Shown: positions 17 to 8,449 of the stretch, piece by piece
Layout of the letters: each line of letters starts with the position of its first letter
Numbering within the stretch: the first letter of the stretch is position 1
Assembly (NCBI RefSeq): GCF_012910805.1
Contig: NZ_WTVK01000037.1
Location: 1 to 57,551 of the forward strand
Direction: 5' to 3'
DNA from: Aromatoleum evansii
GTDB taxonomy: Bacteria > Pseudomonadota > Gammaproteobacteria > Burkholderiales > Rhodocyclaceae
DNA: 57,551 nucleotides
Notes under the pieces: generated by a model
The model's database searches: none
Told to the model about the DNA's origin: nothing
Seen by the model: only the letters and a program-made list of their open reading frames with translations
Made by a program: the position numbers and the translations under genes

Positions 17-808
17 TCAGGCCGCGTGCTTCAGCTGCTTCTTGTACAGGAAATCCAGCACCGCCGCGCGGCAGTGCGCGAACTCCGGCTGCTCGGCCAA
101 CGCCAAGCGATCGCGCGGACGCGCCAGCTTCACCTCCAGGATCTCGCCGATCGTCGCCGCCGGCCCGTTGGTGAGCATCACGACGCGATCCGACAGCAGC
201 ACCGCCTCATCGACGTCGTGCGTCACCATCACCATCGTCGCCTTCGTCGCCGCGAGGATCTTCACCAGCTCGTCCTGCAGCATCGCACGCGTGAGCGCAT
301 CGAGCGCGCCGAAAGGCTCGTCCATCAGCAGGATGCGCGGCTCCATCGACAGCGCGCGGGCGATGCCGACCCGCTGCTTCATGCCCCCCGAGATCTCGTG
401 CGGAAACTTCGTCTCGGCGTGCGACAGCCCGACCAGCGCCAGCGCATCCTGCGTACGCTGCTTCAGCTTCGCCTTGCCCTCCTTCGCGCCGAACACGCGA
501 TCGACCGCGAGATACACATTGTCATAGCACGTGAGCCAGGGCAGCAGCGAATGGTTCTGGAACACCACCGCGCGCTCGGGGCCGGGGCCGGCGATCTCGC
601 GCCCGTCGCACAGCATCACGCCCGAGGTCGGCCGCGTGAGTCCTGCGATCAGGTTCAGCAGCGTCGACTTGCCGCAGCCCGAGTGGCCGATCAGGCTGAT
701 GCTCTCGCCCTCGTGGATGTCCAGGCTGATCCCGCGCAGCGCCGTGAAGGGTCCGTTCTTCGTGTTGAAGACCTGCCCGACGTTCTCGATCTGTACGATC
801 TTCTTCAT
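17..808 (-). CDS. nrtD: Nitrate ABC transporter ATP-binding protein
   Basis: This is the ATPase of the nitrate (possibly nitrite or cyanate) importer; it binds the cytoplasmic face of the permease and drives uptake. At 263 residues it has the normal length for the NrtD/TauB/SsuB group. Visible motifs are Walker [10 protein letters not shown] (residues 41-49), the signature SGGMKQR and Walker [12 protein letters not shown] chose the ATG at 808 because GGAGGA lies six bases upstream; an in-frame GTG at 823 would put the start inside that ribosome site. It is the last gene of the minus-strand nrtA-nrtB-nrtD set, 18 bases after nrtB. The exact anion is inferred from the neighbours. Confidence 0.9.
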
Positions 809-826
809 GATGGTCTCCTCCACCGC

Positions 827-1765
827 TCAGCGGCCTTCATAGTTGAAACGACGGGCAAGCAGCATCAGCGCCTGCTCGAGGATCAGGCCGACGATGCCGA
901 TCACGAAGATCGCGATGATGATGTGCTCGACCTTGAGGTTGTTCCACTCGTCCCACACCCAGAAACCGACCCCCACGCCGCCGGTCAGCATCTCGGCCGC
1001 GACGATCACCAGCCACGCCGTGCCGATCGACAGGCGGATGCCGGTCAGCATGTAGGGCAGCACCGCCGGGAACAGGATCTTCGTGAACACCTTCCACTCG
1101 GACAGGTTCAGCACCCGCGCCACGTTGAGGTAGTCCTGCGGCACGCGCGTCACGCCCTGGGCGGTGTTGAGAATCATCGGCCAGATCGAGCAGATGAAGA
1201 TCGTCCAGGTGGCCGCCGGGTCGGCGCGCTGGAACACCAGCAGGCCGATCGGCAACCACGCGAGCGGGCTCACCGGGCGCAGCAGGCTGATGATCGGGTT
1301 CATCATCTGAGACAGCACCGCGAAGCGCCCCAGCAGGAAGCCAGCCGGGATGCCCACCAGCGCCGCGATGCCGAAACCGATCGCCACGCGCTGCAAGGAC
1401 GACAGCACGTTCCAGCCGATGCCCTGGTCGTTCGGCCCGGCGCGGTAGAACGGGTCGGAGAAGATCGCCACCGCCGCCTCCCAGGTCTTGCCCGGCGTCG
1501 GGATGCCGCCGCCGTTCATCGTCGCCAGATGCCACAGGCCGATCAGCAGCGCGAGCCCCGCCAAGGGCGGCAGCACGGCCGCGGCCAGCGCGCGCATCCA
1601 GCCGCCCAGGCGCGCGCCGTAGCCCCTGCCCGGCGCCGCAGCAGGCGCATCGGCCGCCACGACCTTCACCGCCCGGCCCTTGCCGCGCGCCGCCAGCACC
1701 GCGCGCAGCCCCCTCACCTCCGCGGTCCCGGCGTCAGTCCGGTCCGCCACCACTGCCAGCGTCAT
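827..1765 (-). CDS. nrtB: Nitrate ABC transporter permease
   Basis: Inner-membrane permease of the nitrate importer, 312 residues, of the NrtB/SsuC/TauC family. A variable Ala-rich N-terminus of about 55 residues precedes the first membrane segment (LPPLAGLALLIGLW). Several hydrophobic helices follow, with the binding-protein-dependent permease region in the C-terminal half (GTAWLVIVAAEMLTGGVG). A GGGAGG ribosome site lies about nine bases before the ATG. It sits 16 bases after nrtA and 18 before nrtD, so the three are one transcription unit. The family call is firm; nitrate as substrate follows from the adjacent nrtA and nasT. Confidence 0.9.
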   Translation of the reverse strand: MTLAVVADRTDAGTAEVRGLRAVLAARGKGRAVKVVAADAPAAAPGRGYGARLGGWMRALAAAVLPPLAGLALLIGLWHLATMNGGGIPTPGKTWEAAVAIFSDPFYRAGPNDQGIGWNVLSSLQRVAIGFGIAALVGIPAGFLLGRFAVLSQMMNPIISLLRPVSPLAWLPIGLLVFQRADPAATWTIFICSIWPMILNTAQGVTRVPQDYLNVARVLNLSEWKVFTKILFPAVLPYMLTGIRLSIGTAWLVIVAAEMLTGGVGVGFWVWDEWNNLKVEHIIIAIFVIGIVGLILEQALMLLARRFNYEGR

Positions 1766-3062: not shown

Positions 3063-3089
3063 AAAACGAAAACGGCGCACATCGCCCGT
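3063..3089 (-). terminator. Candidate attenuator terminator in the nrtA leader
   Basis: On the minus-strand transcript a short hairpin (ACGG, bulged G, CG, loop ATGTG, CG, CCGT) is followed by TTTTCGTTTT, about 20 bases before the nrtA start. The same 3' arm, CGCCGTT, can instead pair perfectly with AACGGCG in the third leader hairpin (bases 3122-3128). That provides a possible terminator/antiterminator choice. This is read by eye and no folding energy was computed. Confidence 0.5.
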
Positions 3090-3118
3090 GGCAAATCGCG
3101 AGGATTCCGCCCGGGGAT

Positions 3119-3195
3119 GGACGCCGTTGTCCGTAGCTTGCACGACCCCGACATTGGGGCCGGTCAATCCGTCGCCGAACCGCCATTGATTCGAC
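3119..3195 (-). promoter_or_regulatory. ANTAR-type hexaloop leader RNA of nrtABD
   Basis: Three tandem hairpins with six-base loops can be read in the nrtA leader. P1 (3174-3195) has arms GTCGAATC and GGTTCGGC around AATGGC. P2 (3143-3162) has arms CGGCCCC and GGGGTCG around AATGTC. P3 (3119-3132) has arms GGAC and GTCC around AACGGC. All loops have A at position 1 and G at position 4, the known signature of RNAs bound by ANTAR antiterminators such as NasR. Spacers are 11 and 10 bases. P3 covers the left arm of a possible terminator stem. The nasT gene just upstream encodes an ANTAR protein, so the likely ligand is at hand. Confidence 0.75.
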
Positions 3196-3207
3196 TCAGG
3201 GCTTCCA

Positions 3208-3224
3208 TAGCAGATGCTGTGCCA
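3208..3224 (-). promoter_or_regulatory. Sigma-54 promoter of nrtABD
   Basis: On the minus strand TGGCAC-AGCAT-CTGC gives GG-N10-GC, the -24/-12 spacing of sigma-54 promoters. Transcription would start near 3196-3199, placing hairpin P1 of the leader almost at the 5' end. Control by NtrC is inferred; I saw no convincing NtrC site. Confidence 0.7.
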
Positions 3225-3396
3225 GGCGCGGCGAACAACGCCTAACACCTTTATCGGCAAGGGTTTCCGTAGCAACGAAGCATGATGAAACATGCGGCGG
3301 GAACGCATGGTAACCGCACTATTGCAGTGCACAACACAGGGGTATCGCACCAATCGTGCGCGGCTGTTCCCGGTCGAACAAGTTGGGCAGGCCGCC

Positions 3397-3473
3397 CTGT
3401 GGTAGCGGCTTCAGCCGCGAATCGGCGATGTCGCCATGACTGCGTCCATTCGCGGCTGAAGCCGCTCCCACAG
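3397..3473. repeat. REP-like palindrome, copy 1 of 3
   Basis: Inverted repeat with arms built on GCGGCTTCAGCCGCGAA and its complement TTCGCGGCTGAAGCCGC, separated by a variable centre. The outer ends match GTGG(T/G)AGC and GCTCCCAC. The same arms recur at 8210-8283 and 50474-50547. It lies between nasT and the nrtA promoter. The rest of the 490-base gap (3042-3531) holds the nrtA leader and promoter, and nothing else I can recognise. Confidence 0.85.
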
Positions 3474-3531
3474 GGGAACTCGGCTTGCATTCGCCGCCGA
3501 ACGGGTCCTGCACCGGGTGGTGCAGCACCTG

Positions 3532-7974: not shown

Positions 7975-8059
<85 letters not shown>

Positions 8060-8364: not shown

Positions 8365-8449
<85 letters not shown>

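Follow-up and report, generated by a model that had tools for sequence, protein, structure and literature searches.

The window analysed here is a whole contig of 57,551 nucleotides from Aromatoleum evansii (NZ_WTVK01000037.1), part of a 5.9-Mb assembly in 330 contigs that is 100% complete by tool estimate. To judge from the relatives of its nrtA, the host is a betaproteobacterium close to Rhodocyclaceae. On its minus strand an rlmB-like gene, a REC-ANTAR regulator gene, an intergenic region of 490 bases, nrtA, nrtB and an nrtC/D-type gene follow one another in that order (Table 1). All features of the nrtA leader lie on this strand, at the place for which an earlier sequence-only reading had described three hairpins beside an ANTAR gene. 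That gene does encode a REC-ANTAR protein, and it gives the single ANTAR match in the whole genome. NrtA carries a twin-arginine signal, predicted from its sequence, and has only a weak SsuA-family match in NCBIfam.

Table 1. Features of the nasT-nrtABC region of the window.
Feature	Position	Strand	Basis or remark
rlmB-like gene	4959-4153	minus	SpoU methylase
nasT-like REC-ANTAR regulator, 195 aa	3532..4119	minus	PF03861 67.3 bits + PF00072
NtrC-like site GCACTGCAATAGTGC	3316..3330	minus	starts 106 nt upstream of the sigma-54 element
sigma-54 -24/-12 promoter element TGGCACAGCATCTGCT	3209..3224	minus	sequence
P1, 8-bp hairpin GUCGAAUC-AAUGGC-GGUUCGGC	3174..3195, loop 3187-3182	minus	starts at about +4
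P2, 7-bp hairpin CGGCCCC-AAUGUC-GGGGUCG	3143..3162, loop 3155-3150	minus	extra, middle hairpin
P3, 4-bp hairpin GGAC-AACGGC-GUCC	3119..3132, loop 3128-3123	minus	putative antitermination hairpin
intrinsic terminator	3063..3134	minus	left arm begins inside P3, right arm at 3078-3071 (GCGCCGTT), T-rich tract ending at 3063
nrtA, nitrate-type ABC binding protein, 419 aa	1782..3041	minus	PF13379 E 3.6e-104
nrtB, nitrate ABC transporter permease	827..1765	minus	TIGR01183 245.8 bits, cut-off 209.05
nrtC/D-type nitrate ABC transporter ATP-binding protein	17..823	minus	TIGR01184 335.1 bits, cut-off 291.8

At the gathering threshold, Rfam models found nothing in the whole window besides two tRNA genes (7975-8056 and 8365-8446, plus strand), which have equal scores. 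Between nasT and nrtA a long palindrome (3388-3487) is formed by the repeat GAGCGGCTTCAGCCGCGAA (96 + 88 copies in the genome), whose copies, among the places listed, often stand as inverted pairs, as in a REP/BIME-like element. Several miRNA-like Rfam matches at 3366-3507 sit on this palindrome and were rejected as RNA genes.

Counted from the sigma-54 element, the predicted transcription start falls near 3198, 3 nt before P1, which bears out the proposal of a sigma-54 start at the first hairpin. The element is present in all ten readable leaders of the genus. Upstream of it, exact GCAC-N7-GTGC, which we take to be the NtrC consensus, occurs within 160 nt in 83 of 146 leaders of the order Burkholderiales, against 0.5 expected from shuffles, and 53 of 91 such sites start 91-110 nt upstream of sigma-54. 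Together, the NtrC-like site and the sigma-54 element point to NtrC and nitrogen shortage.

The three hairpins seen in the sequence-only reading (loops AAUGGC, AAUGUC and AACGGC) are found as described, with hexaloops that all begin with A and have G in fourth place (A1/G4). In addition, each loop is closed by a C:G pair. Linkers are 11 nt (P1-P2) and 10 nt (P2-P3), with 41 nt between P1 and P3. Each hairpin also folds when taken alone (P1 -8.7, P2 -12.4 and P3 -4.0 kcal/mol). In the minimum-energy fold of the full leader (z -2.87) P1 and P2 are formed and the terminator takes the place of P3, as expected of a switch. The segment from P1 to P3 alone is not unusually stable (z -0.93 against shuffles), and the case for the hairpins therefore rests on conservation, not on energy. 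The plus strand of the same interval folds no better than shuffles (z -1.15), and the signal is on the minus strand. A small ORF starting in P1 (ATG at 3186) was set aside, since leaders with AACGGC have no such ATG.

The third hairpin had been read as the switch half, overlapping a terminator arm, and this part of the reading is well supported. AACGGCGU of P3 pairs with GCGCCGUU (3078-3071), the last pair being U-G; the T-rich tract follows at once. The folding energy is -39 kcal/mol (z -4.67) for the terminator segment and about -4 for P3 alone, so P3 would need help to win; such help is what an antitermination protein would give. We looked for the overlap in 103 upstream regions, leaving out L012, L049, L090, L099 and L105 (truncated) and L047 and L038 (copies). 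In 86 of the 88 leaders with a P3-type motif (near-copies such as L030 and L057 both counted, and the motif taken as P3 standing at the expected P1 place in L030, L039 and L057) a terminator-like stem with a score of at least 11 starts within P3 and ends at the T-tract; when the letters of P3 were shuffled, this was so in 217 of 1760 trials. Position 3 of the P3 loop also changes together with its partner in the right arm (AACGGC/GCCGTT, AAAGGC/GCCTTT and AAGGGC/GCCCTT, that is C/G, A/T and G/C), which supports mutual exclusion of P3 and the terminator.

Known ANTAR targets consist of two small hairpins (at least 3 bp) with hexaloops carrying A1 and G4 (PMC3369931), and in SELEX with NasR a closing C:G pair was selected as well as A1 and G4 (PMC7496416). 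The window leader has the hexaloop hairpins, the C:G closing pairs and the overlap with a terminator, and the genome encodes an ANTAR protein. In its A1/G4 hexaloops, its C:G closing pairs and the overlap of the last hairpin with an intrinsic terminator it resembles the Enterococcus faecalis eut leaders bound by EutV, the Klebsiella nasF leader of NasR and the Pseudomonas aeruginosa amiE leader of AmiR, as these are described in PMC3369931 and PMC7496416. Unlike them it has three hexaloops and not two, with 41 nt from P1 to P3. Comparison thus makes it an apparent variant of the known ANTAR antitermination leader, differing in its three hexaloops. Our literature search found no three-hairpin ANTAR leader. 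Several ANTAR elements per transcription unit have been described in Desulfotomaculum acetoxidans, with at least 13 hits in six units (PMC3369931).

Spacing matters for the question of which hairpins work together. A survey of actinobacteria required an ANTAR linker of 2-25 nt (PMC8164766); this range takes in P1-P2 and P2-P3 of the window, and not P1-P3. In the case of EutV, where the eut linkers are 5-12 nt, induction fell when the linker was 3 or 14 nt long (PMC3369931), and a 20-nt extension of the linker abolished antitermination in vitro (PMC8934654). By these limits P1 and P3 are unlikely to act as a simple pair unless P2 joins in or compacts the gap.

Within the genus ten leaders are readable (L012 is cut off). 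P3 is identical in all ten, P1 is present in all ten with the loop AAYGGC, and P2 has an A1/G4 hexaloop in nine (A1 in nine, G4 in ten), its other four loop positions varying. Loss of the loops in close relatives, which would have spoken against the hairpins, is therefore not what we see. The exception is L009, where GGTGCG stands at the P2 loop, A1 is lost and a triloop hairpin forms instead. One P2 pair changes on both sides within the genus, from U-A to C-G. The covariation score of the genus alignment, in which pairing is 100%, was reached by 70 of 500 shuffles, with ten close relatives only.

P2 and P3 had been proposed as the working pair, with P1 spare or alternative, and one could also think of P1 as a stabiliser of the 5' end. 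The 10-nt spacing of P2 and P3 does fit two-hairpin leaders, and across the order (see below) the median P2-P3 spacing of 9 nt matches that of the two-hairpin class; in Undibacterium, Rhodoferax and relatives it is the first hairpin that has the looser loop, or none fitting the rule. In the genus of the window, it is P1 that has the better loop and P2 the looser one, and P1 remains where P2 is without an ANTAR loop. P1 as a mere spare does not agree with this, and we consider a P2-P3 pair of that kind improbable. Judged by these leaders, P1, just after the start, is the more widely conserved hairpin in the family of the window, and P2 a lineage-specific addition; in other families the first hairpin is the added one.

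A collection of nrtA leaders was assembled to see how far the third hexaloop extends in Burkholderiales. Searches with the nrtA protein gave 50 of 101 relatives (the genome of the window counted), 11 of 17 genus members and, from named genomes, the 80 best of 593 loci. Across the order 137 of 399 genomes had nrtA; 30 of these came as loci (4 already in the set), and 80 further places were added. We examined 208 of 215 upstream regions (L012, L049, L090, L099, L105, L047 and L038 were left out). From these, 166 candidate leaders were kept, 37 regions lacking P3 and a terminator by script and 5 identical ones being dropped. A sigma-54 element was found by pattern in 148 of the 166 (145 by a stricter pattern), and an A1/G4 P1 at the expected place in 120. 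The 148 were classed by how far the P3 loop lies from sigma-54 as short (below 77 nt, n=48), long (77-105 nt, n=91) and longer (n=9); L172 was too short and was excluded.

Among the short leaders none has three A1/G4 hexaloops, 39 have two and nine have one, while three are present in 32 of the long leaders, two in 51 and one in eight. The P1-P3 linker of the short class has a median of 8 nt (3-20, n=39). In the triples the medians are 14 nt for P1-P2 (1-23), 9 nt for P2-P3 (3-15) and 43 nt for P1-P3 (32-50); the first two fall within the two-hairpin range of 3-20 nt and the third outside it. One of the 32, L096, is doubtful, since its P1-P2 gap is only 1 nt. The count leaves out hairpins closed by G-U and those whose inner stem has 3 bp (e.g. 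in Undibacterium L067, L075 and L108). One very long nrtA leader (L255) has four A1/G4 hexaloop hairpins, P3 included.

The third hexaloop might be a chance fold of GC-rich sequence, as the ordinary stability of the P1-P3 region and the genus alignment, alone without significant covariation, would allow. Against this we set the 83 long leaders with P3 and a partner. With P3 and the best partner held fixed and the remainder shuffled, an extra A1/G4 hexaloop hairpin was seen in 32 and expected in 1.42; for stems of at least 5 bp the numbers were 26 and 0.35. Hairpins with six-base loops carried A1/G4 in 87 of 111 cases in the leaders versus 8 of 140 upstream. Because the hairpin and terminator script selects for pairing, counts of pairs are circular, and we used as evidence features outside the selection criteria. 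The closing pair is C:G in 32 of 32 middle hairpins of triples versus 18 of 52 control hairpins with A1/G4 taken from upstream sequence, and loop position 2 is A (A2) in 29 of 32 versus 10 of 52. Nothing else in the sequences speaks as strongly as these two features for a middle hairpin of the presumed ANTAR-binding type.

The triples span ten family labels (f1, f8, f12, f15, f21, f27, f31, f35, f220 and f221), and further ones, outside the genomes that carry these labels, are in Cupriavidus, Noviherbaspirillum, Keguizhuia, Herminiimonas, Rhodoferax and, doubtfully, Variovorax. Nine of the 32 are from the genus of the window, so the effective number is below 32. By these comparisons a chance fold is very improbable, and the three-hairpin design appears as a recurrent one in Burkholderiales.

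A more serious alternative is that P1 works with P3 and that P2 is a structural spacer which shortens the linker, its loop being ANTAR-like by descent or put to weak use only. In leaders of the Dechloromonas/Azonexus type, P1 and P3 are kept and a strong hairpin in the gap has a loop that breaks the ANTAR rule, and L009 keeps the hairpin at the P2 place without the loop rule. The 42 gaps of long or very long two-hexaloop leaders have a median z of -1.7 (30 below -1, 18 below -2). Their unpaired nucleotides number 7 in the median, against a shuffle mean of 10.6 and near the 8-nt linker of short leaders, although some of these gaps contain an uncounted third hexaloop (e.g. L067, L100 and L107). 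The A1/G4 counts, too, tell against necessity: 51 of the 91 long leaders have two hexaloops and eight have one, and since the gap of many holds a hairpin that is not of the ANTAR type, some leaders can do without an ANTAR loop at this place, and the extra hairpin may act as a spacer. A spacer, though, predicts no hexaloop preference, and it leaves without explanation why A1, G4, A2 and the C:G closing pair recur in 32 middle hairpins under at least ten family labels. We therefore consider it unlikely that P2 is a spacer alone. What seems to be favoured in general is a hairpin in the gap, which in a good part of the lineages has the ANTAR loop; P2 of the window is probably used as a NasT site, judging from the recurring loop features.

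The genome of the window holds a second leader of this kind. Upstream of cobA and nirB (L126, 1424-1566) there are a sigma-54 element (read by eye), P1, P3 and a T-tract. Promoter, P1, P3 and terminator are like those of the window, but L126 has two hexaloops with a linker of 21 nt. Of 12 cobA-nirB loci in the genus 11 are readable, and ten are without a third hexaloop between sigma-54 and P3; the other (L265) has one more A1/G4 fold, weak and overlapping. Since the two-hairpin leader occurs in the same genome and in its sisters, NasT does not need three hairpins, and as the genome has only one ANTAR gene, the same NasT presumably serves both leaders. Genome-wide, the P3 pattern gave 15 matches versus 9 when reversed; apart from the window's own match, L126 is the only one with P1 and a T-tract. 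The pattern of sigma-54 followed by AAYGGCG gave 10 matches versus 10 in the control, the window's own leader included. These two patterns were the whole of the genome-wide leader search, and targets of another make are missed by it.

A related motif is present in Rfam. The consensus of RF03032 (narK RNA), reportedly described by Weinberg in 2017, has a sigma-54 core, a CC-AACGGC-GG hairpin and a second hexaloop hairpin, GAC-AAAGAC-GUC, which is not modelled. We know of no function assigned to this RNA. RF03032 models a single stem and lacks a third hairpin, unlike the window leader with its three; that leader (3223-3157, minus strand) reaches 18.5 bits, below the gathering score of 43.2, and is not a member by score. 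When 274 genomes of the class were searched with RF03032, 13 matches were obtained in 12 genomes (L113-L125), two of them over the cut-off. Inspected by eye, 11 of the 13 show P1, a hairpin resembling P3 and a terminator with its T-tract, and L120 and L121 do not; a plain sigma-54-like element is present in 7 of the 11 matches with P3. A relative of the ANTAR protein lies within the flanks (up to 1.5 kb) of nine of the 13, partial in L115, L118 and L120. By these observations the narK RNA of Rfam is probably a sigma-54-driven ANTAR leader. A literature search, outside which the original description of narK RNA lay, found no connection between this RNA and ANTAR proteins.

The window NasT aligns with EutV over its length, and the alignment, read with a numbering shift of +2, keeps the RNA-contact residues Arg142, Lys143, Lys149, Glu160, Tyr164, Arg168 and Met172. 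Lys147 is replaced by Arg, and three contacts (Asn173, Arg175 and Arg177) are changed. The residues that in EutV contact loop G4 are kept, as is Met172. At the phospho-Asp position of the receiver there is a Glu (PDVILIE); in nrtA-linked ANTAR relatives this place, found by a short motif match, is taken by D, E, Q, N, S, G and others.

A REC-ANTAR NasT-like protein beside nitrate assimilation genes, together with a hairpin leader, recalls NasS-NasT and nasA of Paracoccus denitrificans and Azotobacter (PMC3795266, PMC5424462). It differs from that system, as those sources describe it, in the Glu of the receiver, in the sigma-54 promoter at P1, in having nrtABC as target and in that no NasS was found in the genome. 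A cytoplasmic NasS partner (NMT1_2, PF13379) was sought in all 330 contigs, and the single PF13379 match is NrtA with its twin-arginine signal. With Glu at the phospho-Asp position and no NasS found, NasT may be controlled without phosphorylation and without NasS. One may speculate that NrtA, the only NMT1_2 protein, is the sensor before its export.

By tblastn, a relative of the ANTAR protein is present in 85 of 110 nrtA loci, a count that includes copies and truncated flanks. About a dozen of these match in the ANTAR part alone; L026, L048, L050, L059, L062, L063, L091, L098, L103 and L110 match NasT in the C-terminal ANTAR part only. Such loci may use another type of sensor, NasR-like NIT-ANTAR or other. 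Several of them have longer terminator stems.

We put the probability at about 0.6 that the window leader is a NasT-type antitermination leader, started by sigma-54 and carrying three ANTAR hexaloops. Promoter, hairpins, terminator overlap, conservation and gene order come from sequence comparison; binding, the order of events and the signal are what we infer from them. How an ANTAR dimer uses two hairpins has been described in two ways, as a dimer on tandem hairpins (PMC3369931) and as recruitment followed by transfer, the model proposed for EutV (PMC8934654). By analogy, the best reading of the window would be recruitment and transfer, with P1 and P2 as candidate recruitment hairpins and P3 as the antitermination hairpin. 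Under nitrogen limitation, NtrC and sigma-54 would start transcription just before P1, and in the nascent RNA P1 would fold first and P2 second. Without active NasT the long terminator would overtake P3, and transcription would stop before nrtA. With nitrate present, NasT dimers would bind P1 and/or P2 and be handed to P3 as it emerges; holding P3, they would keep the left arm of the terminator occupied, and nrtABC would be read. P2 would be the handover site, close to P3, and P1 would raise the odds that a dimer is already on the RNA. Control is thus likely to be of the AND type, nitrogen shortage acting through NtrC and nitrate through NasT.

It is also possible, if somewhat against the odds, that the three tandem hexaloops (four in one case) form a stepping-stone array, in which NasT would be loaded at the 5' end and passed from hairpin to hairpin up to the one that blocks the terminator. 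Such an array would allow a leader longer than the EutV linker limit, or would set the amount of NasT needed. If this is true, nrtABC with three hairpins and cobA-nirB with two would respond differently within one cell, though the same NasT acts on both.

The analysis yields 166 candidate ANTAR leaders of nrtA in Burkholderiales. Leaders with two hexaloops, with three, or with two and a non-binding hairpin occur in relatives and within one genome, and they would make a natural series on which the use of hairpins by ANTAR dimers can be tested.
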